Source: a virus
DNA: 38,695 nt
Virus record (IMG/VR): IMGVR_UViG_3300046028_004853
Location: 1 to 38,695 of that record
Reading direction: 5' to 3' (one strand)
Shown here: piece by piece, positions 3,554 through 38,695 of the stretch
Layout of the letters: every line of letters starts with the position of its first letter
How positions within the stretch are numbered: position 1 is the first letter of the stretch
The notes under the pieces: model-generated
What the model was told of the DNA's origin: nothing
Database searches by the model: none
What the model saw: only the letters and a program-made list of their open reading frames with translations
Made by a program: the position numbers and the translations under genes

Positions 3554-3883
3554 GTGAGTAGAGCAACCTATCGCAAGTGCCATGCGTGTGGAGACATTCA
3601 CGACGTGGCCGCATGGCCCGGACCGTGCCTTGAGCAGTTTCGCAAGGCACGGTCCAGCCTTCCCATGCCAGCAATCCGGTCAGACGGCATGGACCCGATC
3701 ATGAACCATGCCAACGGGCTGATTTACGACAGCCGGTCGGCTTATGAGCGCGGCGTGAAAGAGGCAGGATGCGAGATTGTCGGAAACGAAAAAGTAACCC
3801 CAAGGCCACGGGCGGTGCTGTCGGACCGTGAGCTAAAGCAAGACATCAAGACGGCTATTGATCAGGTGGAGGCCAGACTATGA
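3554..3883 (+). CDS. Zinc-ribbon-like protein upstream of scaffold
   Basis: 109 aa from a GTG start with a good GGAGG nine bases upstream. The N-terminus has CHACGDIHDVAAWPGPC, a one-sided zinc-knuckle-like arrangement with three cysteines and a histidine. The middle segment (SDGMDPIMNHANGLIYDSRSAYERGVKEAGCEIVG) follows the pattern of short proteins encoded just before the scaffold in podoviruses with this gene order. The C-terminal half is a charged helix. The function is unknown. The gene overlaps the scaffold start by four bases (ATGA), implying translational coupling and a role in head assembly. Confidence 0.72.
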   Translation: MSRATYRKCHACGDIHDVAAWPGPCLEQFRKARSSLPMPAIRSDGMDPIMNHANGLIYDSRSAYERGVKEAGCEIVGNEKVTPRPRAVLSDRELKQDIKTAIDQVEARL

Positions 3884-4908
3884 GCGACATGGAAGACGAT
3901 ATTCGGGCGGCGATGGCCAGCCTTGAGGCAGAACCGGACGCCGCGCCGGTCGATGAACCGGTTGTAGCGACAGAAACCGACGCCACTGAGGATGAAACAC
4001 CTCAAGACGACGGCGAAAAGGCATCAGACGGGCGCGAAAGAGGTCCAGACGGCAAGTTTATTGCCAAAGCACAAGAAACCGTGCAAGATACTCCTGACCA
4101 GCCCTCGGAGGCAGTCGCGGACCCTGCTGCAAAGCTCGCCATCCGCGCCCCGGCTTCATGGTCGCCTGCGGCTAAGGCCACGTTTGATAAACTGCCCCCG
4201 GAAGTGCAACAGGCTGTTGCAAAGCGAGAGCAGGAAATCGATCACGGACTGCGCCGCAAGTCTGAGGAAGTGAAGCGGTATGAGCCGCTGGAACAACTTA
4301 TCGCCCCTCGCCGCGCTCTCTGGGCGGCTCAAGGGATGGATGAGGCTTCGGCAATCAAGACGCTGCTTGCGGCGCAGGATTTGTTGGAGCGAGACCCGAA
4401 ACAGGGTCTAGAGTTTCTGGCCCGTTCGTATGGCGTCAACATTGCCAGTCTATCGGCCCAGCCGCAGGGACAGCCTTATCAGGCCCAGCCCGCACCGGAC
4501 AGCCACCCAGAGATTGCAGCCCTTAAGCAGCAACTCCAAGTCTTGCAAAGCCAAGTCCAAACGGCGCAAACCGCGCCTATCGTCAGCCAGATTGAAGCTT
4601 TCCAGAACGACCCAGCTAACCTGTATTTCGAGAACGTCCGCGACGATATGGCGGTGCTCTTGCACAACGGGAAGGCATCGGACCTGAAGGAAGCATACGA
4701 CATGGCTTGCTGGATGAGGCCGGACATTCGCCCGTTCCTGCAAACAGTGCAGGCCCCGGCGGTTCCAGTGCAAGAGAAGGTAGCGCAAGCCAAGCGGGCG
4801 GCGGTTAGTGTCACAGGGTCTCCCGGTCAAAGCCGGATTCCCAAGTCCAATGGAACCATTGAGGACGACATTCGTGCGGCTTTTGAGGAAGTCGCCGGGT
4901 CGGCTTAG
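3880..4908 (+). CDS. Capsid scaffold protein
   Basis: 342 aa. It has a highly acidic, disordered N-terminal ~90 residues, then a conserved core (APASWSPAAKATFDKLPPEV followed by a charged helix), a Q-rich coiled coil around residues 205-235 and a basic patch near the end (VQEKVAQAKRAAVSVTG). Scaffold proteins nucleate the procapsid and leave before DNA enters. The composition, length and position directly before the capsid gene fit this well. The peptide EDDIRAA occurs twice, at residues 5-11 and again at about 328-334. It ends with TAG, showing that amber is an ordinary stop in this phage. Confidence 0.85.
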   Translation: MSDMEDDIRAAMASLEAEPDAAPVDEPVVATETDATEDETPQDDGEKASDGRERGPDGKFIAKAQETVQDTPDQPSEAVADPAAKLAIRAPASWSPAAKATFDKLPPEVQQAVAKREQEIDHGLRRKSEEVKRYEPLEQLIAPRRALWAAQGMDEASAIKTLLAAQDLLERDPKQGLEFLARSYGVNIASLSAQPQGQPYQAQPAPDSHPEIAALKQQLQVLQSQVQTAQTAPIVSQIEAFQNDPANLYFENVRDDMAVLLHNGKASDLKEAYDMACWMRPDIRPFLQTVQAPAVPVQEKVAQAKRAAVSVTGSPGQSRIPKSNGTIEDDIRAAFEEVAGSA

Positions 4909-6202: not shown

Positions 6203-6215
6203 ACCTTCCGCCTGC

Positions 6216-6237
6216 CCTAGCCTCCACTGGGGTTAGG
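6216..6237 (+). other. Hairpin carrying the TGGGGTTAGG motif
   Basis: CCTAGCCTC pairs with GGGGTTAGG across a four-base loop (nine base pairs, two of them G-T), 14 bases after the capsid-associated gene. It stands just before a stronger terminator hairpin. TGGGGTTAGG recurs at 26028-26037 and, on the other strand, at 35701-35710. This may be a decayed terminator or an RNA 3' end signal. Confidence 0.5.
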
Positions 6238-6246
6238 TGTTAGCTT

Positions 6247-6279
6247 AATGGCCTCGGGGTTCGTCCTCGAGGCCATTTT
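6247..6279 (+). terminator. Rho-independent terminator after the head genes
   Basis: AATGGCCTCGGGG pairs with CCTCGAGGCCATT (13 bp, one G-T pair) around the five-base loop TTCGT. The stem's last two T's run into two more (TTTT in total). It lies between the capsid operon (stop 6202) and the modification genes (start 6294), and may lower expression of the downstream genes relative to capsid. The T-tract is short, so partial read-through is likely. Confidence 0.75.
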
Positions 6280-6293
6280 GCTATGGAGGTAGC

Positions 6294-7724
6294 ATGATAA
6301 ACGTCGTCAGCGTCCGGGTCGGGGACAAATACCCGATAGAATACGTCATCAAGCTGCATGACGGTATTGCCCGGCATCTGGACGAAGAACAGCGCCATTG
6401 GTGTGTGACTGACAAGCCGAACGAACTGCCAGAGGGCATCACGGCTATTCCGCACAATCCTGATCTGCCCGGTTGGTGGCAAAAGGTTTATTTATTCTCG
6501 CGCCGTATGCCGTGGGAGTGGTGCGACGAAGTTCTGTATATGGACCTTGACGTATGCGTAACCGGCAGACTTGAGGAACTGCCGCACGGCATTATCCGGG
6601 ATTGGCACTGGCCAACCTATAACAGCAGCGTGATGCGGTGGTTGCATGGCGAGCATCGCGACATTTGGGACCGCTTTACGCCTGATGTAATCGACCGACC
6701 TACAGAAAGCCTAAAGGGTCTTCTCCCAGCCGGTCAGATTAACGGCGGCGACCAAGAATGGATTAGCCAAGTCAGCGCATGGGAGACGTTCCCGCCTGAT
6801 ATGTTCGTCTCATACCGGAATGCGGTGTCGTGGCCACCTGAGACGGCCAAGGCGGTGATATTCCACGGCGACCCGAAGCCGCATGAAGTGACGGAAGGGT
6901 GGGTGCCGGGCGTTTGGCGTGTTGGCGGTTATACGGCCATGCCAGAACTAAAGGGCATGAACGTCACGCATGACTTTGCCTACGCCAATGTGCGGGCCAA
7001 CGTGCAGCGGGATTTGCCGTGGTTCTCGGGTTTTGGGGAGCAAGACAAGGCTTGCGTCATTGTCGGCGGCGGTCCCTCGCTTTCGGACGGTGTGCAGGCC
7101 ATCAAAGACCATCGCAGACGAGGCGCTAAGATTATCAGCGTCAACAATGCGCTTCGGTATCTGACGGAACGGGCGGTTACCCCAGACGTTCATGTCATGC
7201 TGGATGCGCGGGAAGAAAATCTACACATGGTCGAGGATGCGCCAATGTCCGTGCGCTATTTTCTCGCCTCTCAGGTTCATCCGTGCGTGTTTGATGCGCT
7301 TTCGGGGCATGATGTTGTTCTGTGGCATAACGCGATGGGGTCTGGCGAAGAACTGCTCGACATCGTTAAGCCGTGGTTTGACGAAGGACCTAACCAGAAA
7401 CCGTGCGTTCTAGTGCCGGGAGGCGGGACCGTGGGGCTTCGTGCAATCAATCTGGCGTGGCTTTCGGGGTATAAGAAAATCCACCTTTACGGTTTCGACA
7501 GTTCGTATGCCGAGGGCGCTCACCACGCCTATTCGCAAAGCCTGAATGACGGCGAGCCGACAATGGAGGTTGTGCTAGGTGACAAGACATACACTTGCGC
7601 CCGCTGGATGATTAGGCAGGCGATGGAGTTTCAGCAGCAGTTTTTGTATTTGCGTGACCGTGGCGTTAAGATCATCACGCATGGGAAGGGCCTCATTCCC
7701 GACATGGGAAGGTTGCTTGCATGA
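6294..7724 (+). CDS. Glycosyltransferase fused to a DUF115/MptE-like domain
   Basis: 476 aa. Residues 1-210 resemble a GT-A fold glycosyltransferase: the DxD-type metal/sugar-nucleotide motif is YMDLDVCVTG (DLD at 84-86), followed by GGDQEW near 151-156 and VIFHGDPKPHE near 188-198. Residues ~250-476 resemble the DUF115/MptE-like family, also found in flagellin Maf glycosyltransferases. This part has the Rossmann-like CVIVGGGPSLSDG (254-266), then ISVNNALRYL, and later VPGGGTVGLRAINLAWLSGY and LYGFDSSY. The gene starts after a terminator with GGAGG upstream and overlaps the next gene. The acceptor is unknown. Capsid or tail protein, lipopolysaccharide or flagellin are possible. The two-domain call is firm, the substrate open. 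Confidence 0.8.
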   Translation: MINVVSVRVGDKYPIEYVIKLHDGIARHLDEEQRHWCVTDKPNELPEGITAIPHNPDLPGWWQKVYLFSRRMPWEWCDEVLYMDLDVCVTGRLEELPHGIIRDWHWPTYNSSVMRWLHGEHRDIWDRFTPDVIDRPTESLKGLLPAGQINGGDQEWISQVSAWETFPPDMFVSYRNAVSWPPETAKAVIFHGDPKPHEVTEGWVPGVWRVGGYTAMPELKGMNVTHDFAYANVRANVQRDLPWFSGFGEQDKACVIVGGGPSLSDGVQAIKDHRRRGAKIISVNNALRYLTERAVTPDVHVMLDAREENLHMVEDAPMSVRYFLASQVHPCVFDALSGHDVVLWHNAMGSGEELLDIVKPWFDEGPNQKPCVLVPGGGTVGLRAINLAWLSGYKKIHLYGFDSSYAEGAHHAYSQSLNDGEPTMEVVLGDKTYTCARWMIRQAMEFQQQFLYLRDRGVKIITHGKGLIPDMGRLLA

Positions 7725-7801: not shown

Positions 7802-7980
7802 GCAAGCAATACGATGACCGGAACGAAAACGAGCGGCGCAAAGCGTGGGCAACGCTCAAATGGTATCCAGAGCGGTTGACCGACGCTGACCGAGCGCTGT
7901 TGCTGCTAGACGAGCCTGACTTTTATCATCCGGTGGATGCTAATCGGCACCTTAAAAACGACAGAGGCTTTGCGAAGTGA
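7798..7980 (+). CDS. Small hypothetical protein of the modification island
   Basis: 60 aa, starting at the ATG that overlaps the micropeptide stop. It is strongly charged (MSKQYDDRNENERRKAWATL then KWYPERLTDADRALLLLDEP) and predicted helical. No family was recognised. It ends with the overlapping GTGA that starts the methyltransferase gene. The frame stays open upstream, but the overlapping ATG at 7798 is the natural start. Confidence 0.65.
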   Translation: MSKQYDDRNENERRKAWATLKWYPERLTDADRALLLLDEPDFYHPVDANRHLKNDRGFAK

Positions 7981-8555
7981 AACAGATTGACGGCCTTTGG
8001 TGGCCTGATTTTGACGTTCGGTGCCGTAACGCGGTGGTAAGTGAGTGCGCCGCTGCAATGCCTGTGGTCTTGCCATTGGTGAAGGAAAAGCGGGTTTGCG
8101 TCCAAGCGGGCGGAAATGTTGGCGTCTATCCGCTGGCTCTGGCGAAGGTGTTTGATCACGTCATCACATTTGAGCCTGATGCAGACAACTTCGACTGCCT
8201 CGCAGAAAATGTGGCCTTAGAGAACGTAATCTTGAACTACGCTGCTCTGGGCGCGACGGCAGGGATGTGCGGAATTCTCCGCATCGATACGGACAACTGC
8301 GGTTCACACAAGACCCTGCCGGGAACGGTTGTCCCGGTTCAGACGATAGATAGCTTGAGTCTCGACCAGTGCGATTTGATCTGGTTAGACATCGAGGGCG
8401 CAGAGGCGGATGCCATTCAAGGCGCACTAGCGACAATCGAGAAGTTTTCGCCTATAATCGTGCTCGAAGAAAAAGGATTAGGCCCGAAAGCCGACATCCC
8501 CGGTTATTCTCGCGTGATGCGGATTGGCAATGACACTGTGTATCGGAGGACATAG
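7977..8555 (+). CDS. FkbM-family SAM-dependent methyltransferase
   Basis: 192 aa from GTG. Motif I is VCVQAGGNVGVYPLALAK (residues ~40-57; more usual is DVGANVG). Motif II acid is FEPD (65-68), and IWLDIEGAEADAIQGAL (~135-151) is the FkbM hallmark. The C-terminus is compact. Such enzymes commonly O-methylate sugars. Sitting one operon step from a glycosyltransferase, it probably caps the added glycan. Q-A in place of the usual D-V in motif I is a variation worth noting, but the glycine loop is kept. The partner and acceptor are inferred from context only. Confidence 0.82.
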   Translation: MKQIDGLWWPDFDVRCRNAVVSECAAAMPVVLPLVKEKRVCVQAGGNVGVYPLALAKVFDHVITFEPDADNFDCLAENVALENVILNYAALGATAGMCGILRIDTDNCGSHKTLPGTVVPVQTIDSLSLDQCDLIWLDIEGAEADAIQGALATIEKFSPIIVLEEKGLGPKADIPGYSRVMRIGNDTVYRRT

Positions 8556-9080
8556 ATGGATTATGTAGCGCCAGACGGGCGGGACCGGATTATTCCGCGT
8601 TTCCATATCAAACCGGTTCGCAACAACTTTCTGTCGGAAAAGGAAGGCCGCGAGGTCTGGACCGACGTGGAGTATGTCGAGCTTATCGTTCCCGGCGATA
8701 ACAAGAACATTGTTGACGTTGCCGTGAAGGACGAACACCGCGAGCGGTGGCCAACCAAATACGCGGCGTTTAAGGCCAACATGGAAGCCCCTGAAAGCGG
8801 GACGCCGCTAGAGGAATGGGCAGGAGTGGGCCGCAGTCAGGTCATGGAGCTTAACAGCGTTCATATTCGCACTGTAGAGGCGCTTGCGGGCCTGTCTGAT
8901 AGCCAGTTGGCCAAATGCGTTCCGATGGGCGGTCATGCCCTTCGCGCAAAGGCGCAACGGTTTATTGAGCAGACCGACGCGGAAAAGCCCCTTGCGGAAA
9001 TGACGCAACGCATCCGAGAGCTTGAGGAAAAACTGGCGCTGGCCATTGAAAGCCAATCAGCAAAAGAGGCAGCGGAATGA
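8556..9080 (+). CDS. Hypothetical protein with HhH-like segment and C-terminal coiled coil
   Basis: 174 aa, starting directly after the methyltransferase stop. The N-terminal half (RIIPRFHIKPVRNNFLSEKE and EYVELIVPGDNKN) looks beta-rich. Residues ~108-143 (IRTVEALAGLSDSQLAKCVP then GGHALRAKAQRF) resemble a helix-hairpin-helix unit. The end is a coiled coil (MTQRIRELEEKLALAIESQS). Phages with this connector module often carry a similar protein upstream of the adaptor. The role is unknown, probably in assembly or a minor virion part. Confidence 0.65.
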   Translation: MDYVAPDGRDRIIPRFHIKPVRNNFLSEKEGREVWTDVEYVELIVPGDNKNIVDVAVKDEHRERWPTKYAAFKANMEAPESGTPLEEWAGVGRSQVMELNSVHIRTVEALAGLSDSQLAKCVPMGGHALRAKAQRFIEQTDAEKPLAEMTQRIRELEEKLALAIESQSAKEAAE

Positions 9081-11990: not shown

Positions 11991-12454
11991 GGCTAGTCTC
12001 CGGCCCGTTCTCCCCGCTTGTCGCTCAATGGGTAGCGGACCAGATTGGGCATGGACTGGACTGGGGGCCGTGCGAAGCTATCGGGGTGGTTGATAAACAC
12101 GACAATCTTATCGGCGGTGTGGTTTTTAACCAATATCAGCCTCAATATCGCAGCATTGAGGTTAGCTTTGCCGCTACACGGTCGGATTGGTTGACGCCTC
12201 GCCTTGTGACGGGTATCTTGCGTTATCCGTTCCAGCAACTTGGAGCGGCGAGAATCACCAGCCTGACGCCAAAGCGTTTGCGTCCCGCTCGCCAGTTTCT
12301 CTCAAAGTTTGGTTTCAAACATGAGGGGACTATCCGGCGTGGTTATGGTGACGATGATTGCATCATATCCGGTCTCCTCGAAAGCGAGTGGCGTGTCCAC
12401 CGTTTCAATAAGGACCGTGTAAGTGAGCAAGCCTCGGCCCCCAGCGGCTCCTGA
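11987..12454 (+). CDS. GNAT acetyltransferase-like protein of the tail module
   Basis: 155 aa if it starts at the TTG overlapping the nozzle stop (TTGA); a GTG at 11933 in the same frame would add 18 residues. It has the GNAT layout: PCEAIGVVDKHDNLIGGVVF (strands 2-4), a central helix after WLTPRLVTGILRYPFQQLGA, then RITSLTPKRLRPARQFLSKF and FKHEGTIRRGYGDDDCIISG. The canonical acetyl-CoA loop Q/RxxGxG/A is not obvious, so catalysis is uncertain. GNAT-like proteins of this shape occur in the tail operons of many short-tailed phages. The target is unknown. Confidence 0.7.
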   Translation: MRLVSGPFSPLVAQWVADQIGHGLDWGPCEAIGVVDKHDNLIGGVVFNQYQPQYRSIEVSFAATRSDWLTPRLVTGILRYPFQQLGAARITSLTPKRLRPARQFLSKFGFKHEGTIRRGYGDDDCIISGLLESEWRVHRFNKDRVSEQASAPSGS

Positions 12455-13325
12455 CCCTGTTCAACTTGCCAACGCTCAAAGCGCGGCAAACACCGCGACG
12501 GCGCGTGAGCAGCAGCGGCTAAACATGGTCAATACGTCCGGCCCTCAAGGGACCGTGCGGTATATCGCTGACCCGTCTGCGCCCGGTGGCTATCGTCAAG
12601 AAACGGCACTCAGCCCGCTTGAACAGCAGAACTACGAACGCTCGACCGGCGTTTACGGTAGCGCCCTCGACACGGCTGGCCAGCAGATTGGCCGCGTGAA
12701 CGAGGCGCTTGGTCAAGGTTTGAACACCGAGGGCTTGCCGCAACTGCAAGGCTACAACGCACCTGACTTTGACCGCCAACGGTTTGAGGATTCGGTTTAT
12801 GCCAGCCAGACCCGTCGGCTTGACCCGCAGTTTCAGCGGCTTGAGAGGTCGCAAGACGCACGTCTTGCCGCGCAGGGCCTTGGAGCGAATAGCGAGGCAA
12901 CGCGAAACCTTCGAGCTGATTTTGCTAGAGATAGAAATGACGCATACGGAGAGGCTGCAAACCAAGCCATCCAAGCCGGTGGTGCGGAACAATCTCGCGC
13001 TATTCAGCAAGCCATTGCGGGCGGGACATTCGGTAATCAGGCGCGGACGCAGGGCCTGCAAGAGCGGGCTTACGTCCAGAACCAACCCCTTCAGCAGCTT
13101 CAAGCCCTGCTAGGAACGGGCCAAGTCAGTATGCCCCAAGGCATACAATACAGCCCGACCGGCGTGGGTCAAACGGACGTGCTTGGCGCTAATGCGCTTT
13201 CACAGCAACAACTGAACAACAACTACCAAGCACAAATGCGGCAGCAAGGTGGGCTGATGAGCGGGCTGTTCTCGCTTGGCTCGGCAGGCATTGGTGCTGG
13301 TTGGTTCGGCGGAAGGGGCGGTTAA
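12423..13325 (+). CDS. Ejection/internal virion protein candidate 1
   Basis: 300 aa from GTG, overlapping the GNAT gene by 32 bases. It is Q, A, N and R rich with long predicted helices: LSPLEQQNYERSTGVYGSAL, FQRLERSQDARLAAQGLGAN, then SEATRNLRADFARDRNDAYG. It ends with a glycine-rich hydrophobic tail (GGLMSGLFSLGSAGIGAGWF). Proteins with this alpha-helical, low-complexity layout lie between nozzle and fibre genes in podoviruses and are ejected with DNA to span the cell envelope. The call is by composition, size and position rather than by a named family. Confidence 0.65.
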   Translation: MSKPRPPAAPDPVQLANAQSAANTATAREQQRLNMVNTSGPQGTVRYIADPSAPGGYRQETALSPLEQQNYERSTGVYGSALDTAGQQIGRVNEALGQGLNTEGLPQLQGYNAPDFDRQRFEDSVYASQTRRLDPQFQRLERSQDARLAAQGLGANSEATRNLRADFARDRNDAYGEAANQAIQAGGAEQSRAIQQAIAGGTFGNQARTQGLQERAYVQNQPLQQLQALLGTGQVSMPQGIQYSPTGVGQTDVLGANALSQQQLNNNYQAQMRQQGGLMSGLFSLGSAGIGAGWFGGRGG

Positions 13326-13326
13326 T

Positions 13327-14865
13327 ATGGCCCGCGCTCCCATGCCCGCACCGCAGATGATCGAAACCCCGGCTATGCGCCGTAGCGCAATGCTGGCCAA
13401 ATTGCTTGAGGAACAGCGCCAGCCGACAGAAATTACGGGCGGCTACGGCGAACTAGCGGCACGGCTTCTCGGTCAAGGTATTACGCAGTTTAGTGCAAAC
13501 CGTGCTGAACGGGCTGTGCGAGACGAACGGGCAAGGCGGACGGCGGGTGAGGCTGATGCGTTTGGCTTGACGCTGGCAAACGTGTTGCGCGATTCCGGTG
13601 GTGCGCCGCCCGCTACGGATATGCCGCCCGCTGCCCCGCCTCCAATAGTGCCGCCCGTCGCTAACACGCAACAACCCGTCGAAGCCATGACGGCCCCCGT
13701 TGCAGCGGTCGCGGGTTCGCCCATGCCTCCCGCTGCTCCGGCTGGAATGCCTGCGGCAATGCCTCCGATGGCAGATGTTCCGCCAATGCCGCAACCCGCT
13801 GCGCCGCCTGTCAATGCCCCGCAAATGGCCCCGCAAGCTGCACCACAAGCGGCCCCGCAAATCGCGCCCCAATCGGCTGCTAACCCGCTTGGGATTACGC
13901 CGGGTGAAATGGCCCGGATTCAGGAGGGCGTTGACGCGTTCCGCCGCACGGGCGACCCTGCAATTGGAGCATGGGTGCGGAGTGAAATCGATCTGGTTCG
14001 TCAGCGGATGTCGGCTCCCGCTGCGGAGCGTCAAGAGTTCCAATCGATCAACGGCGTTCCGGGTGTTGTTGACCCGATTACACGTCAGTGGACGCCGCTT
14101 GAGGGGGGTATCCCACAAGCAGCCATGAACGTTAATCAGGTGGTTGGCGCAAACAATGCGTTTGGCTTGCCTGAAGGGTCTGGCGTGTCGCTGAACCCGT
14201 TTGGGGTGCCTAGCGTCGTGGGGCGTCCGACTGAAGGTTATGAGCGCGTGGGTGGGCAGTTGCGCCCAGAGGCTGGCGGCAGGGAAGACCTTAACGCTCC
14301 GACACGGCGGTTTGCAGAATTGACAAACCTCCGCAAAGAAGTGGACCCAATCATTGATTCCGCCACGCTGTTGCAGCGGAACATTCAGGCCCTTCGCGCC
14401 GGTTCCCGCGCTCAAAACGGCGCGGGCGACATTGCCATGATTAATGGCCTGCAAAAGCTCATTGACGAAGGCGTGGTCCGTGAAGGCGACGTTGCGCTGC
14501 AACTGCAAGCCCAAGGCATCAATGGCGGTATTGCGGGTCTGCAAGGCTATCTTACGTCGTCGGGCCGGTTTAGCCCCGAAATCCGGGCGCAACTGTTGGC
14601 GACCGGCGAAGATATTTATCAGAACATGAACGCGGTGTATCGCGACCGTGTGCTGTCGTATGAGCCGCTTGTGACGGAAACGTTTGGCTCTGGCGCGTTC
14701 AATAATGTCCTGCCGTCGCGGACTCGTGAGGCATTTGGGTGGGGTGGCGAAGAAGCCCCCGCGCCGCAACCGCGCCCGCGCCCCGCTGCGCCAAACCGTT
14801 CGCGTCCACCGGCTTCGACCCAAAATCGCCCCGCCTTGCCACCCGGTTTTGAGTGGGACGAATAA
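13327..14865 (+). CDS. Ejection/internal virion protein candidate 2
   Basis: 512 aa, starting two bases after the previous stop. The N-terminal helical part (residues 1-90) is followed by a long proline/alanine/methionine linker (about 90-190, with repeats like PQMAPQAAPQAAPQIAPQ). Next come a mixed domain (GVPGVVDPITRQWTPLEGGI and RPTEGYERVGGQLRPEAGGR), a helical C-terminal domain (~350-480) and a proline-rich tail. The low-complexity linker suggests an extended molecule able to unfold through the portal. It is the second of three consecutive candidate ejection proteins. No enzymatic motif was seen. Confidence 0.62.
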   Translation: MARAPMPAPQMIETPAMRRSAMLAKLLEEQRQPTEITGGYGELAARLLGQGITQFSANRAERAVRDERARRTAGEADAFGLTLANVLRDSGGAPPATDMPPAAPPPIVPPVANTQQPVEAMTAPVAAVAGSPMPPAAPAGMPAAMPPMADVPPMPQPAAPPVNAPQMAPQAAPQAAPQIAPQSAANPLGITPGEMARIQEGVDAFRRTGDPAIGAWVRSEIDLVRQRMSAPAAERQEFQSINGVPGVVDPITRQWTPLEGGIPQAAMNVNQVVGANNAFGLPEGSGVSLNPFGVPSVVGRPTEGYERVGGQLRPEAGGREDLNAPTRRFAELTNLRKEVDPIIDSATLLQRNIQALRAGSRAQNGAGDIAMINGLQKLIDEGVVREGDVALQLQAQGINGGIAGLQGYLTSSGRFSPEIRAQLLATGEDIYQNMNAVYRDRVLSYEPLVTETFGSGAFNNVLPSRTREAFGWGGEEAPAPQPRPRPAAPNRSRPPASTQNRPALPPGFEWDE

Positions 14866-17132
14866 TGCCACAAGTCGCAATCAATCCGACAACGGGCGAG
14901 CGATTGATCGTAAAGGACGGCGCTCTCGTTCCTTACGAACAAGTTGAAAGCCTAATTACCGCGACTAACCCGACAACGGGTGAAACGCTAGTGCTGCAAG
15001 ACGGCGAAATGGTTCCGCTGGCTGAAGCTAGAGACAACGGCATTTATCCTCCGCCGCCGCTTGGTTCATCTGCGGAAAATCCAATTGATCTTAACGCGCG
15101 ACCGACTGCGGATGTTCTTCGCAAAGGCGCATGGGTTATTGGACGGGAGGGCAGGCCCTATCAGTTGACCGAAGACGCGCGGAATGCGCCCACTCGTTTG
15201 GGGGATGTAGAGGAATCGCCGGGCGTATATTCGCGCCCGCTATCGGTTGCGGAAGACGTAGCCAAATCGCTTCCGACTGGCGTGGTTGAGGGACTGACCG
15301 GCCTTGCTGGTATGCAAGGCACAATCGGCCAAATGATTTACGGCGAGCAATCGCTGGGCCAAAATATGCCCGGATTTGGCATTGTTGGCCCGACTGGCGA
15401 ACAACTAAACGAGACGATTCGTCAGGGGCTGGGGCGGGATTATTACCAGCCTGTAACCCCTGCTGGTGAATACTCGCGGACCTTTGGTGAGTTTCTTCCC
15501 GGTGCGCTGGCACCCGGTTCTGCCCTTGCAAGGGGCGCATCCGTAGCGGTCCCCGCATTTACTAGCGAAACTGCTGGCCAGATTGCGCGTGGCATGAGCG
15601 GCGGTGAGCGTGATACAGGCGCGGAAAACATCGCCCGCTTGCTCGGTGGTTTGGGTGGCGGTCTAGCCGTTGGTGGCGCGGGCGCGGTTCGCGGCGGGGC
15701 TGACATTTCCCTCCGCAATGCGGCGGAAGGCGTAACTCCGCAAAACTTGCAACTGGCAACGGCGCTTCGGCGTGACGCGGAAGCGATGGGCATTGACCTA
15801 ACCAACGCGGAGGCCATTCAGCAAGTCACGGGCGGCGGGTCAGGCCTTGGCCGCTTGCAGCGTGTGGTCGAAGGCCAGACGACGCGCATGGCTCCCATGT
15901 TCGCCAATCGGCCCGCTCAAGTGCAAGGCGCTATCGAGTCGCGGCTGAACCAGATTGCGCCAAGCGTTGAGCCGGGCGAGCTTGCTGGACAAGCACAAAG
16001 CGCAGCGGAAAATGTGCTTAACACAATGCGCCAGCGCGTAAATGAAAGCGCTGACCCGCTATACGCTCAACTTCCCGGACAAACGCTAGACCCAGCGGAC
16101 CTTGCGCGGCTGCAAGCCAACGCATCTTACCGCACCGCGTCGGCGCAACTTATGGGAAATGAAGAGCTTGCTCCGCTTGTCACGGGCGGCCCTGAAGACC
16201 TTTCGACCGTAAATCGCGTCATTCAGCAACTTGACACGATGGGCGAGCAAGCGCGGCCCGGCGTAATGAATCCAACGGGCAACTACACGCTGGCGGCGCA
16301 ACGCGAACAAGCCGCAGCTCTGGCGCGACAACTGGCGGGGGCGACATCGCCTGAGTTTGCCGCAGCACGACAAACCGTAGCAACGGGACGGCAGGCATTT
16401 GTTGAGCCGCTTCGGCGCGGGCCTATTGGCACTATTGCCGGTCAATCTGATGTTCAGCCAAATCTCACTGGGCAAACGGAAGCGTTGTTTCCGTCGATGC
16501 CGTTTGAGGGTCAAGCTGCTGAAACCGCCCGTGCGCTAGAACTGATGGGTGAGATTGACCCGTCTGTTGGTGGCCCGCTTGTTCGTCAACAACTGGCGCG
16601 TCAAGCGATGGAAGCGCAACAAGAATTGGCCACGGGCGCTAACCAATTCGGCGGTGCGAATTTTGCCGCTCGCGCTTTTGGCAATCCAGAACAACGCCGG
16701 ACCATCATGGGGGCGCTTGACGTTGTAAACCGTCCTGACCCTAACATGGCGTTCCCACCCTTGAGCGTCAACGCGATGCCAGCTCGCGGTTCTGACCCGA
16801 TGGCGCAGCTTGTCGAGGTATTGCAGGCAACGGGCCAGCGTCACCGCGCGGGTTCCGATACGGCGTTTAATCAAGACATCCAGCGTCAAATGGCGGGCGG
16901 AAACGTGGCTAGTGGCGCGGTTCGCTCTGTCGCAAACATCCCCGGAATTCCCGGTCGGATTGCGACAGGGATTGATGACATTGTGGCCCGCCGCAACGCC
17001 GAAACACTAGCCGATCTGCTGATGGCTAACTCCGAAGATTTCAACGCGCGGCTGACCCGTGCGCTCAACCGTCCCCGTGGCGCTAACCGCATTCGTGCGG
17101 GCGTAGCGGTCGCGGCTGGACAGGAGGACTAG
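14865..17132 (+). CDS. Ejection/internal virion protein candidate 3 (largest)
   Basis: 755 aa from the ATG overlapping the previous stop (TAATG). The N-terminus carries a tandem motif: NPTTGERLIVKDGALVP, then NPTTGETLVLQDGEMVP about 29 residues later. A glycine/alanine-rich region (~200-290, e.g. RLLGGLGGGLAVGGAGAVRG) could insert into or cross a membrane. The remaining ~450 residues are predicted helical with many Q and A. The size, last place in the ejection-protein series and membrane-like segment fit the largest internal protein of a podovirus. I see no lysozyme or transglycosylase motif. Confidence 0.65.
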   Translation: MPQVAINPTTGERLIVKDGALVPYEQVESLITATNPTTGETLVLQDGEMVPLAEARDNGIYPPPPLGSSAENPIDLNARPTADVLRKGAWVIGREGRPYQLTEDARNAPTRLGDVEESPGVYSRPLSVAEDVAKSLPTGVVEGLTGLAGMQGTIGQMIYGEQSLGQNMPGFGIVGPTGEQLNETIRQGLGRDYYQPVTPAGEYSRTFGEFLPGALAPGSALARGASVAVPAFTSETAGQIARGMSGGERDTGAENIARLLGGLGGGLAVGGAGAVRGGADISLRNAAEGVTPQNLQLATALRRDAEAMGIDLTNAEAIQQVTGGGSGLGRLQRVVEGQTTRMAPMFANRPAQVQGAIESRLNQIAPSVEPGELAGQAQSAAENVLNTMRQRVNESADPLYAQLPGQTLDPADLARLQANASYRTASAQLMGNEELAPLVTGGPEDLSTVNRVIQQLDTMGEQARPGVMNPTGNYTLAAQREQAAALARQLAGATSPEFAAARQTVATGRQAFVEPLRRGPIGTIAGQSDVQPNLTGQTEALFPSMPFEGQAAETARALELMGEIDPSVGGPLVRQQLARQAMEAQQELATGANQFGGANFAARAFGNPEQRRTIMGALDVVNRPDPNMAFPPLSVNAMPARGSDPMAQLVEVLQATGQRHRAGSDTAFNQDIQRQMAGGNVASGAVRSVANIPGIPGRIATGIDDIVARRNAETLADLLMANSEDFNARLTRALNRPRGANRIRAGVAVAAGQED

Positions 17133-17134
17133 AT

Positions 17135-18310
17135 ATGGCCCGCAACGGTTCTGGATCATATTCGCCCCCATCAAACACATGGAATCCTGCGGTTCCTGAA
17201 ACCGCTATCCTGTCGGATGATTGGAATGCGACGCTTGCGGACCTCGCGACGGCGCTGACGCAATCGCTTGCATCCGATGGCCAAACGCCAGCCGCTGCGG
17301 TTATCCCGTTTGCTCAAGGCATCCGCGTTTCCGATGGCTTGATTACGGCCCCATCAATTGCCGTCATTGGCGACACGGACACCGGCTTTTATTTCCCAGC
17401 TGCGAACTCTGCCGCGCTGGTTTGTGGCGGTGTGGCTGTTCTGTCGGCTACGTCGTCTGGCGTGACGTTCCCGCTCGGTGTGACGTTTGCTGGAAACCAG
17501 ACCGTCACGGGCGACCTGACCGTCAACGGTAACACGACCATCGGCAATGCTGGCGCTGATACGCTGTCGGTAGTGGCTACCGGCACGTTTACCGGAAACC
17601 AGACTTTCAATGGCACGGCTACCTTTACCTCGACTGTGACCGTTCCTGACGCATCGTTCACGAATGCCAAACTGGCGACGGTTGCCACGGCCACAATCAA
17701 GGGCCGGGTGACGGCTGGCACGGGCGCTGTAGAGGATTTGACCGGCGCTCAAGCAACAACGCTGTTGAGCGCGGTGGTAGGTGATAGCGGGTCCGGCGGA
17801 ACCAAGGGTTTGGTCCCTGCCCCGGCTGCTGGTGATGCGGCTGCTGCTCGCTTCCTTAGCGCGGCTGGCACGTTTACGGCGGCTGTCCCTGTCGGCTCTG
17901 TGACCATGTATGCGGCAAACACGGCTCCGACTGGCTGGCTGGAATGTAGCGGAGCGGCGGTATCTCGGACGACATACGCGGGATTGTTCGCTGCAATCGG
18001 CACAGTGTTTGGGTCTGGTGACGGCTCGACCACGTTTAATCTGCCCGATATGCGCGGCGAGTTCGCCCGTGGTTGGGATAACTCGCGAGGCATCGACCCG
18101 GCTCGCGCGTTCGGTTCGGCGCAAGCTGACGAGCTTGAAGCGCACGTTCACAGCGTTACGCCTCCGTCTGCAACCGATGACACCGGATCGGGGCTGACCA
18201 CGACCGGCACGGGCGGCGCTGAAACCATTACGCCATACAACACGGCATCAACAGGCGGTAGTGAGACGCGCCCGCGTAACATTGCCCTTATGTTTATTAT
18301 CAAGTTCTAG
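17135..18310 (+). CDS. Tail fibre with phage tail-collar domain
   Basis: 391 aa, preceded by AGGAGG. The N-terminal attachment region (residues 1-60) is followed by beta repeats (VTGDLTVNGNTTIGNAGADT) and by SFTNAKLATVATATIKGRVT, a linker common in fibres. The C-terminal ~150 residues are a tail-collar domain: PVGSVTMYAANTAPTGWLEC, FGSGDGSTTFNLPDMRGEFA, then the metal-binding-like HVHS and the closing SETRPRNIALMFIIKF. It is expected to trimerise and bind a host surface sugar or to dock the spike. The alanine- and threonine-rich middle is typical of shaft regions. Confidence 0.85.
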   Translation: MARNGSGSYSPPSNTWNPAVPETAILSDDWNATLADLATALTQSLASDGQTPAAAVIPFAQGIRVSDGLITAPSIAVIGDTDTGFYFPAANSAALVCGGVAVLSATSSGVTFPLGVTFAGNQTVTGDLTVNGNTTIGNAGADTLSVVATGTFTGNQTFNGTATFTSTVTVPDASFTNAKLATVATATIKGRVTAGTGAVEDLTGAQATTLLSAVVGDSGSGGTKGLVPAPAAGDAAAARFLSAAGTFTAAVPVGSVTMYAANTAPTGWLECSGAAVSRTTYAGLFAAIGTVFGSGDGSTTFNLPDMRGEFARGWDNSRGIDPARAFGSAQADELEAHVHSVTPPSATDDTGSGLTTTGTGGAETITPYNTASTGGSETRPRNIALMFIIKF

Positions 18311-27638: not shown

Positions 27639-27674
27639 GGCCCGGCGCGTGAACATTCCGCGCCGGGCCTTTTT
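27639..27674 (+). terminator. Strong terminator hairpin pointing against the local genes
   Basis: GGCCCGGCGCG and CGCGCCGGGCC (perfect 11-bp stem, nine-base loop) are followed by TTTTT on the plus strand. The T-tract's last base is the first of the methyltransferase stop codon read on the minus strand. All surrounding genes are leftward, so as a rho-independent terminator it would stop antisense transcription. On the minus strand the hairpin lacks a T-tract. Confidence 0.75.
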
Positions 27675-28324
27675 CATATCAGAACATCTTGCACCGGCTT
27701 TTGAACCGGCTCGGCAAATAGGCGGGGCTGCTTGTAAGCCTCCTCGATGCGGCGACAGGCGATGTCGAAATACGAAGGCTCGCGCTCTATGCCGATGAAA
27801 GCACGGTCGGTCAGGGCGCAGGCAACGCCGGTCGTGCCGGAACCCATGAAGGGGTCGAGGATGGACTTGGCGTCGGGCAGGAATTTGAGGCACCACTCTA
27901 TTAAGGGGAGTGGTTTTTGGGTTGGGTGCCCAAACTCAACGCGACCGACAGGCAAAGAGCAGCGTTTTGATGGCCGATCTAGGTTTGTCTAAGCTGATTC
28001 AAAATCAGCCATTGTCGGAACCGCGTTTACCTTGTCCCAACTTAACCAGCAGCGAGACGGCGGAACCGCAAAATAGTTGCCGCCCCAGATGATAGTGGGG
28101 ACGGCCTTTGCAATCAGGATGGCGACCAAATCATGCGGTGCCTCAAGATCCCATTTTAGAAATCCAGAGTTATGGTCCTGTGCGCCCCATGTCCCGCCCT
28201 GCATTTTTTTGCCCAGACCATACGGCGGGTCCGTTAAGATTGCGTCGAAAGCATCAACGTGCCCTAGCGCATCCCGGCAATCGCCAAGTATCAGCCGACA
28301 GTCACCAATGATTTCCTCACGCAT
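27674..28324 (-). pseudogene. Amino-DNA methyltransferase interrupted by an in-frame TAG
   Basis: An N6/N4 DNA methyltransferase of the beta layout: ILTDPPYGLG (the DPPY catalytic motif) in the first half, then HPTQKPLPLIEWCLKFLPDA and ILDPFMGSGTTGVA (the SAM-binding motif) in the second half, ending in a short tail. The two halves are in one frame, separated only by a TAG at 27990-27988 after MADFESA; the frame continues TNLDRPSKRCSLPVGRVEFG. Relatives typically have W at this spot (pattern FE-A-W-T), so TGG to TAG is the simplest event. The start is the ATG eight bases inside the preceding gene. Unless suppressed or read through, it yields a ~111-aa fragment without the SAM motif. Confidence 0.85.
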
Positions 28325-28490
28325 CACCATTCTCCACAAACGGAAAGCCAATCACCTTAGCCCGGATGATTACGCTTTCCTCTAGCCGGTTAAGCGCCTT
28401 TGCCACGTCTGCGACAGGACGCTTGGCAAGCGAGCCTGATTTAAGAAGCCTATCCTCTTCAGGTGTCCATGCGCCTTTTGGTTTACGCAT
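28317..28490 (-). CDS. Small SANT/Myb-like (GcrA-like) DNA-binding protein
   Basis: 57 aa. The pattern WTPEEDRLLKSG, then VADVAKALNRLEESVIIRAKVIGF, is a SANT/Myb-type or GcrA-type helix-turn-helix, as used by small phage regulators in alphaproteobacteria. It starts with GAGG upstream, two bases after the previous gene, and overlaps the methyltransferase start by eight bases. GcrA works at methylated promoters in Caulobacter, so proximity to a methyltransferase gene is suggestive but not proof. Confidence 0.68.
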   Translation of the reverse strand: MRKPKGAWTPEEDRLLKSGSLAKRPVADVAKALNRLEESVIIRAKVIGFPFVENGDA

Positions 28491-28492
28491 CC

Positions 28493-28870
28493 TCAATCCT
28501 CCCAAATGCTAAACAGTGAGGGCCGCTTGGCAGGGACCGGCTTGGTTCTAACCGGCTTTGGCTTAGGCGCTGGCAAATGGTCGCCACGCTGAAACGCAAG
28601 GGCGAGGGCATAGACAAAACGTTCGTCAGCTGCCCGTTGCCGTGCCTCTGTCTCCCGGTCTTTGTTGAAGCCGTCCGGGTATCTGTTGGCCAGCTCCGAC
28701 CGGCCCAAGTCTTTCTGCCACGGGATGCCCATAGTCCGCGCTCGTTCCCGGACAGTGTATTCCGTTCGGCCCAGCTTCTCGCCAATCTCGGCGGGGCTAA
28801 AGCCTAGTCGCTTCATTTTGCGGAGCGTGTTATCTTGAACGGATGTAAACCAGTCACGCGGCTGACGCAT
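28493..28870 (-). CDS. HTH protein, SANT/GcrA-like
   Basis: 125 aa with GGAGG five bases before ATG. Residues 6-50 (WFTSVQDNTLRKMKRLGFSP then AEIGEKLGRTEYTVRERART) form a trihelical DNA-binding unit related in pattern to the following 57-aa protein. The C-terminal half is basic and proline-rich (APKPKPVRTKPVPAKRP) and probably disordered. Likely a regulator of phage or host genes. Target unknown. Confidence 0.68.
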   Translation of the reverse strand: MRQPRDWFTSVQDNTLRKMKRLGFSPAEIGEKLGRTEYTVRERARTMGIPWQKDLGRSELANRYPDGFNKDRETEARQRAADERFVYALALAFQRGDHLPAPKPKPVRTKPVPAKRPSLFSIWED

Positions 28871-30699: not shown

Positions 30700-31046
30700 T
30701 GAAGCCTTCAAAAGAACTCTGCAAACTGGACGACGATATGTGGGAGGCGCATCGCGACTACGCCCGCGAGAACGACAGAGATTGGGCCAACGCTGACGAA
30801 CTCCGCGAAGAGGGCCTCGCAATCGGTGAGGAAGCCTACAAGCTCAACCCCGAAAACGATTACGAACACGACGTAGGCGATTGGGAAACTTACATCGAAG
30901 GCGAACTGGACAGGTATGACGAGCATCAGCAATCCGTCGTCGCCCGCGCCGCCTATTACCGCGTCAAAGAATGCGCTGAGGAAGCCGCCGATAAGGCCGC
31001 GAAGGCTCTGGCGATGGCCGCTGACATTACGGGAGCCGCGAAATGA
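30699..31046 (+). CDS. Acidic helical early protein
   Basis: 115 aa from the ATG in the TGATG junction. Very acidic N-terminal two thirds (ENDRDWANADELREEGLAIG and NDYEHDVGDWETYIEGELDR), then an alanine-rich helix (CAEEAADKAAKALAMAADIT). No recognised family. The highly negative surface would be compatible with DNA mimicry or binding a basic partner, but this is speculation from composition. Confidence 0.65.
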   Translation: MKPSKELCKLDDDMWEAHRDYARENDRDWANADELREEGLAIGEEAYKLNPENDYEHDVGDWETYIEGELDRYDEHQQSVVARAAYYRVKECAEEAADKAAKALAMAADITGAAK

Positions 31047-31948
31047 GCGCGAGAAAAGCTAAAACCGAAACGACCGTTGTTGCCTACAAGGGCACGGACA
31101 AGGACATGGCTTGCCGGGGCTTTGCATTTGAGCTTGGCAAGACCTACGAGCATGACGGCAAGGTAGTCGCCTGCCGAAGCGGTTTCCATGCGTGTGAAAA
31201 CCCGTTTGATGTGTGGTCCTATTATGGACCGGAGGACGGTAACCGTTTTTTCCGCGTCACTCTCGGCGGTGAACTGTCGAGGCATGGCGATGACAGCAAG
31301 ATAGCAGCGGGCCGCATTACGCTCGATGCGGAACTGCGTCTGCCAGACCTTGTGAACGACGCGGTAAAATGGGTGATCGCTGCAACGAAAGGCAATAAAG
31401 ACAACGGTAAGGGCTCCGCCAAGATCGGTTCCAGCGGCTACTACGCCAAGATTGGTTCCAGCGGCTACTCCGCCCAGATCGGTTCCAGCGGCAGCTCCGC
31501 CCAGATTGGTTCCAGCGGCGACTACGCCAAGATTGGTTCCAGCGGCGACTACGCCAAGATTGGTTCCAGCGGCAGCTCCGCCAAGATTGGTTCCAGCGGC
31601 GACTACGCCCAGATTGGTTCCAGCGGCGACTACGCCAAGATTGGTTCCAGCGGCTACTACGCCAAGATTGGTTCCAGCGGCTACTCCGCCCAGATTGGTT
31701 CCAGCGGCGACTACGCCAAGATTGGTTCCAGCGGCGACTACGCCAAGATCGACGCAACCGGAAAAGCCGCGACCATCGCTTGTGCCGGTCAAGGTTCGGT
31801 GGCCCGCGCGGATGAAGACGGCGCTATCTGTCTCGCATGGAACGACGGAAAGCGGACCCGGTTTGCGGTTGGTTATGTCGGAGAAAACGGCATTGAGGCG
31901 GGCGTGTGGTATCGCGCTGAGGCCGGAAAGCTGGTGAGGGCAGAATGA
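31043..31948 (+). CDS. DUF7666-like protein with 12 nonapeptide repeats
   Basis: 301 aa. The N-terminal ~120 residues (VVAYKGTDKDMACRGFAFEL, CRSGFHACENPFDVWSYYGP, FFRVTLGGELSRHGDDSKIA) match the pattern of DUF7666 phage proteins. Residues 126-233 are 12 exact-length repeats of nine residues, consensus A(K/Q)IGSSG(D/Y/S)(Y/S). They would fold as a regular solenoid of stacked beta turns with G and S at the corners. A C-terminal cap follows (AGQGSVARADEDGAICLAWN). The function is unknown. The near-identical DNA repeats make the copy number prone to change. Confidence 0.78.
   Translation: MSARKAKTETTVVAYKGTDKDMACRGFAFELGKTYEHDGKVVACRSGFHACENPFDVWSYYGPEDGNRFFRVTLGGELSRHGDDSKIAAGRITLDAELRLPDLVNDAVKWVIAATKGNKDNGKGSAKIGSSGYYAKIGSSGYSAQIGSSGSSAQIGSSGDYAKIGSSGDYAKIGSSGSSAKIGSSGDYAQIGSSGDYAKIGSSGYYAKIGSSGYSAQIGSSGDYAKIGSSGDYAKIDATGKAATIACAGQGSVARADEDGAICLAWNDGKRTRFAVGYVGENGIEAGVWYRAEAGKLVRAE
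31418..31741 (+). repeat. Tandem 27-bp coding repeat, 12 units
   Basis: Twelve head-to-tail 27-bp units, core GGTTCCAGCGGC, code for the nonapeptide solenoid. Variation is limited to the first base of codon 2 (K or Q) and to codons 8-9 (DY, YY, YS or SS). The pair YY-YS occurs as units 1-2 and again 9-10, pointing to block duplication. Confidence 0.95.
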
Positions 31949-37696: not shown

Positions 37697-38695
37697 ATGC
37701 TTCCCGACGAACCTGAAAATCAAGACGGTATTGACCTCGTTACGAAGTGGATTGACGAAATCAATCTGTCGGAGCGGGAGCTTCAGCCGTGGTGGAAGGC
37801 TGGCGACATCATCGTCCGGCGGTTCAAGAACGAGAACCGCGCCCGTTCTGGTGGCCGCCCTTCGGTTGGTGACCAACGCCGTCGCTTTGCCGTTCTGTGG
37901 TCTAACGTCTCGACCCTTCAGCCCGCGATCTATGCCAAGCAGCCTAAGCCGATGGTGGACAGGCGCTATCGGGATGAAGACCCGGTGGGCAAGGTCGCCT
38001 CTGAGGTGCTGGAACGGGCGCTAGGGTTCAGCCTCGACCAGTATGACTTTGACGGGCGCGTGAAGCTTTGCGTTCTAGACTATTTGCTGCCGGGGCGAGG
38101 CCAAGTGTGGGTGCGTTACATCCCGCATATGCGTCAGGTCAACGCAGAGCAGGATTACGAACTAGGCGAGGGCGTTCAGGACGATGACGATACTGAGGTT
38201 GGCGAGGTGGAGACGCCGGAGGCCGCTGAGGAAGTCGTTTACGAAGAAGTCCAGTGCGACCACGTTGCGTGGAAAGACTGGCTGACTAATCCGGCGCGGG
38301 AATGGGCTGAGGTCCGCTGGGTTGGACGGCGCGTCTATATGACGAAAGCCGAACTGACTGATCGTTTTGGCGCTGCAATGGCCAAGAACGTGCCGATCAC
38401 GACGACTTCGACCGGCACGGACATGGCGTCGGATGCCCAAAAGCAGGCCAACCAGACCGGCGAGGTCTATGAGATTTGGGACAAGCCGACAAAGACGGCC
38501 TATTGGGTTTGCAAGGGCTACACGGGCGGGGTGCTGGACAAGCGCGAAGACCCGCTGGGGCTGACAAACTTCTTTCCGTGCCCGCCGCCCCTCAACGCCA
38601 CGACGGCGAATGACAGCACTATCCCGGTTGCGGATTACGTCCAGTATCAGGACCAAGCCGAGGAACTGGACGAACTGACTGCCCGCATTGGCTTT
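37697..38695 (+). CDS. Portal protein, N-terminal part
   Basis: Starts at the ATG after GAGGGGCT. The frame begins MLPDEPENQDGIDLVTKWID and includes RRRFAVLWSNVSTLQPAIYA, then PKPMVDRRYRDEDPVGKVAS and FDGRVKLCVLDYLLPGRGQV, a conserved portal segment that I recognise in P22-type portals. An acidic insert (YELGEGVQDDDDTEVGEVET) lies near residue 150. The window ends in frame, and the protein continues at base 1; in the final three bases the sequence departs from the expected continuation. The first 290 residues are encoded here. Confidence 0.88.
   Translation, partial: MLPDEPENQDGIDLVTKWIDEINLSERELQPWWKAGDIIVRRFKNENRARSGGRPSVGDQRRRFAVLWSNVSTLQPAIYAKQPKPMVDRRYRDEDPVGKVASEVLERALGFSLDQYDFDGRVKLCVLDYLLPGRGQVWVRYIPHMRQVNAEQDYELGEGVQDDDDTEVGEVETPEAAEEVVYEEVQCDHVAWKDWLTNPAREWAEVRWVGRRVYMTKAELTDRFGAAMAKNVPITTTSTGTDMASDAQKQANQTGEVYEIWDKPTKTAYWVCKGYTGGVLDKREDPLGLTNFFPCPPPLNATTANDSTIPVADYVQYQDQAEELDELTARIGF

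Follow-up and report, generated by a model that had tools for sequence, protein, structure and literature searches.

The window analyzed here, the whole 38,695-base stretch of virus record IMGVR_UViG_3300046028_004853, contains a gene for a beta-class amino-DNA methyltransferase that is interrupted by one in-frame amber codon. It is probably a recent nonsense allele of an accessory, phage-borne and putatively solitary DNA methyltransferase, whose product would be inactive and whose loss would be tolerated. The gene displays the hallmarks of a nonsense pseudogene, namely intact homologues, an internal stop at a conserved residue, and dispensability.

Architecture of the interrupted gene

The methyltransferase frame (27674..28324, minus strand) extends from an ATG at 28324, which is preceded by GGAG, to a TGA at 27676..27674, a total of 217 codons if both the internal TAG and the closing TGA are counted. 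With tryptophan at the TAG, the frame encodes 216 residues, and its single internal stop is codon 112, located at 27989..27991 on the minus strand, one base away from the 27988-27990 given in the first-pass annotation. The upstream open part (27992..28324), from which a 111-residue product is expected with normal termination, carries motif IV (DPPY; residues 32-35, 28220..28231) and an IIWGGNYF segment, and is devoid of motifs X and I-III. The downstream part (27674..27988) carries HPTQKP of motif X (residues 133-138) and DPFMGSG of motif I (residues 157-163, 27836..27856).

Read through the TAG, the succession DPPY, HPTQKP, DPFMGSG is the beta order, with a motif IV of the form (D/N/S)PP(Y/F/W) before the FxGxG of motif I, and the frame matches the PF01555 (N6_N4_Mtase) profile with an E-value of 6e-22. 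These features bear out the original description of a beta-type methyltransferase whose two halves share one frame. Under translation table 11 the halves do not belong to one translated chain, which would arise only by read-through of the UAG. Profile searches of the window for other methyltransferase families gave no match to PF00145 or PF02086.

A structure model of the protein (mean pLDDT 88.2) places W112 inside a predicted beta strand formed by residues 108-113. The model resembles the beta-class enzymes M.BceJIV (8urk), M1.HpyAVI (5hfj) and CcrM (6pbd), with fold-match E-values of 7e-11 to 1e-9. These solved PF01555 members have the same motif order, although the window protein is shorter and only about 16-26% identical to them.

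The genes surrounding the methyltransferase match replication initiator, D5-like regulator, HNH nuclease and RusA-like families. Immediately upstream is a gene for a 62-aa protein (28317..28505, minus strand) with a weak match to the D5-like regulator phrog_323, the stop of which overlaps the methyltransferase start (ATGCGTGA). Directly 3′ of the methyltransferase stop is a G+C-rich inverted repeat (27639..27669, minus strand) that is kept in sister phages and is followed on the plus strand by T5. The first and last approximately 127 bases of the window repeat each other (1-127 versus about 38567-38692, in a portal-like gene), so the window is likely to be a circular phage assembly that is complete. 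Relatives of its capsid include Bradyrhizobium phage ppBjS10J-1 (58%) and Myxococcus phage Mx8 (50%). Elsewhere, at 31043-31948 on the plus strand, there is a protein with near-identical 9-residue repeats of the KIGSSGYYA/QIGSSGSSA type, opposite which long open frames also occur.

The amber codon and the genetic code of the phage

The TAG occupies a column that is strongly conserved among relatives. In a set of 81, consisting of 80 viral contigs found by protein and phage 16-3, the residue at this position is tryptophan in 77, phenylalanine in two, tyrosine in one and a gap in one; none has a stop at the column, and internal stops are likewise absent from the core. In a 50-row alignment, W112 is at least 90% conserved. 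The first-pass annotation had proposed a conserved tryptophan site altered by one change, and the comparison with relatives that it called for, in which all run intact across the site, agrees with this, TGG to TAG being the simplest single change. Rhizobium phage 16-3 provides an annotated example, p097, with 46% identity to the window methyltransferase; p097 and the relatives examined are intact, whereas the window copy is interrupted by one TAG. Exact-pattern scanning revealed neither a second copy of the TAG allele nor a TGG twin among the records covered, which may lack those closest to the window.

Several apparent interruptions among the relatives were set aside. Those in L042, L047 and L073 are TGA codons located at the natural C-terminus or close to it, outside the core, and a phage 16-3 match spanning p096 and p097, which could be taken for a split methyltransferase, is really a 10-base gene overlap. 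Because all relatives run through the site, a natural gene end at the TAG followed by an independent downstream gene is ruled out.

The stop codons of the 60 curated genes in the window are TGA in 39, TAA in 15 and TAG in six. Three of the TAG terminators had been recognized from the outset (4906-4908, 17130-17132 and 18308-18310), and further ones lie at 8555, 22333 and 33901. Genes 3880-4908 and 7977-8555 keep TAG as their terminator in each of the seven sister genomes compared, and read-through at three gene-ending TAGs would fuse in-frame neighboring genes, by up to 678 codons. At 8553-8558 on the plus strand, the gene-ending TAG (TAG in 7/7 sisters) immediately precedes the ATG of the next gene, which is in the same frame. 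No tRNA genes were found in the phage window, and hence no phage suppressor tRNA. When the conserved window genes are set against eight sister records, the methyltransferase TAG is their sole true internal stop; this comparison is based on curated genes, since shadow ORFs obscured one using all ORFs. Apparent stops at 12452, 25820 and 30233 proved to be gene ends or start extensions.

Given the TAG-terminated genes, the missing tRNA and the single interrupted gene, the phage uses the standard code. The features expected of a TAG-recoded phage (many in-frame TAGs, avoidance of TAG as a terminator and a suppressor tRNA) are not seen, and genome-wide recoding, which had been judged unlikely at the outset, is excluded within the limits of sequence evidence. 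Phages that recode TAG and carry suppressor tRNAs, such as phAss-1, with TAG described in 41 ORFs (PMC10607447), likewise have in-frame TAG codons inside conserved genes; the window phage differs from them in having one affected gene, TAG terminators and no tRNA gene.

A variable cassette with a tail probably under purifying selection until recently

Comparison with sister phages indicates that the methyltransferase gene belongs to an exchangeable stretch. In the sister G006, the flank is 92% identical and the sequence jumps from window position 28337 to 27677, so that the missing stretch (27678..28336, minus strand) comprises the methyltransferase; the 27677 edge is common to G009 and G013. 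In G016, the flanks are 93% and 99% identical and an unrelated stretch of approximately 209 bases takes the place of the methyltransferase. Thus, two close sisters without the gene have flanks that are 92-99% identical to those of the window, and one of them is empty at the exact gene boundaries. Sisters that differ at this locus have capsid proteins that are 92-96% identical. Among the 11 sister genomes of at least 36 kb, a PF01555 gene is present in four (G002, G003, G004 and G025) and absent in seven. Three sisters have C5-cytosine methyltransferase genes, instead or in addition (G002, 1607-2158; G005, 6215-6721; G030, 13191-14060), which are absent from the window. To judge from these genomes, the methyltransferase is a dispensable accessory cassette for the clade. 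Its absence in sisters shows dispensability for the clade and says nothing on the restriction enzymes of the window phage's hosts.

The methyltransferases of other sisters are diverged, intact versions in which the ends are common and the middle is swapped. Relative to the copy in G037, residues 1-18 are 94% and residues 163-216 are 100% identical, whereas residues 37-126 are only 11-39% identical; the TAG falls within this swapped middle part. The methyltransferase of another sister contig (L225 of G019, approximately 1836-2510) is a hybrid with a very different front and nearly the same C-terminal tail (YFDIACRRIEEAYKQPRLFAEPV), which suggests that exchanged versions are joined at a common tail. 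In sisters G002 (L217/L218) and G004 (L219/L220), both ends of the contig fall within the methyltransferase gene, perhaps as a result of assembly breaking on mixed alleles.

Sequence downstream of the stop bears the marks of coding constraint. Over codons 155-216, 12 codons differ from those of G037, the nearest copy, and all 12 differences are synonymous, with no non-synonymous change; with G002 as outgroup, the four changes on the window branch are also all synonymous. This pattern therefore points to purifying selection until recently, or still. Either the stop would be young or full product would still be made, and a young nonsense mutation needs the fewest assumptions. The dating is loose, since recombination may have exchanged the tail segment.

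Competing explanations and biological meaning

The most serious competitor to a nonsense allele, though an unlikely one, is that the TAG arose from an error in the consensus or assembly, or that the assembler chose a minor allele, the population having an intact gene. The difference is a single base, no second contig with the TAG was found, and the breaks of the G002 and G004 contigs within their methyltransferase copies could stem from a mixture of alleles in this gene. However, a random single error seldom creates a stop, and the other conserved genes are free of true internal stops, so that the consensus looks clean elsewhere and gives no hint of general error. Suppression is less probable again: a host amber suppressor tRNA or a leaky ribosome would read the UAG, such that some full-length enzyme is made. 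Both halves are intact, and the purifying selection on the downstream half, which accords with recent loss, is equally expected if suppression or read-through still yields the full protein. With TAG ending six genes, any suppression would have to be partial, and it is opposed by the lack of a phage tRNA gene, by the two gene-ending TAGs retained in 7/7 sisters and the fusions that read-through at three TAGs would cause, and by the finding that no relative has a stop at the column. The RNA structure 3′ of the codon is also unconvincing (z -1.7, with 12 of 200 shuffles as good).

Conceivably, the amber codon could serve as a host-dependent switch, with full-length methyltransferase made only in hosts that partly read UAG, such that phage DNA would be methylated in some hosts and unmethylated in others; we consider this very improbable. 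The first-pass annotation had listed a read-through switch beside fresh loss, and nothing found speaks for the switch, while fresh loss fits best with a dispensable cassette and downstream purifying selection. No more credible, and last in our ranking, is a two-chain enzyme made as separate halves. The break does fall between the conserved DPPY half and the motif X/I half of the beta-class enzyme, and a TTG at 27955, 12 codons past the TAG, is the only in-frame ATG, GTG or TTG near the start of the downstream part. Yet no Shine-Dalgarno sequence is visible ahead of this TTG, the break would cut the predicted strand of residues 108-113, and none of the 81 relatives is split.

For the favored nonsense allele, the likely course of events begins with an intact enzyme that would methylate phage DNA and thereby protect it against a restriction enzyme of the host, a role suggested by its family. 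Following a change that was most simply TGG to TAG at codon 112, normal translation would end after 111 residues. The resulting product would retain the catalytic DPPY and, without the AdoMet-binding half (motifs X and I-III), should be inactive. Loss would be tolerated because close sisters do without this swappable cassette, and the phage would then rely on hosts that lack the cognate restriction enzyme, or would lose nothing if it never meets that enzyme. The frame, its stop, the conservation of the column, the edges of the cassette and the selection on the downstream part are observed; we infer that the phage truly carries this base, that it is not read through, and that the enzyme is protective.

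Related situations are known elsewhere. Like the orphan methyltransferases of lactococcal 936-type phages, for which protection of phage DNA against restriction is among the reported properties (PMC4190342), and like p097 of Rhizobium phage 16-3, the window gene is one phage-borne methyltransferase gene found in only some members of its group. Silencing of a modification gene by a small mutation in some strains is exemplified by the Mod gene of Cutibacterium acnes strain SLST H1, which has a natural premature stop (PMC8989293). That case concerns a two-base deletion in a bacterial type III system, whereas the window case would be one substitution in a phage gene.

On its own, a single nonsense allele in a dispensable gene is unsurprising. 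Its significance lies in capturing how phage genes for protection against restriction turn over: within one clade, this locus is either free of a methyltransferase, occupied by diverged but intact versions whose middles have been exchanged, or, in the window, taken by a copy stopped at a single codon. This fits the view that such enzymes persist only as long as the phages meet hosts possessing the corresponding restriction system.
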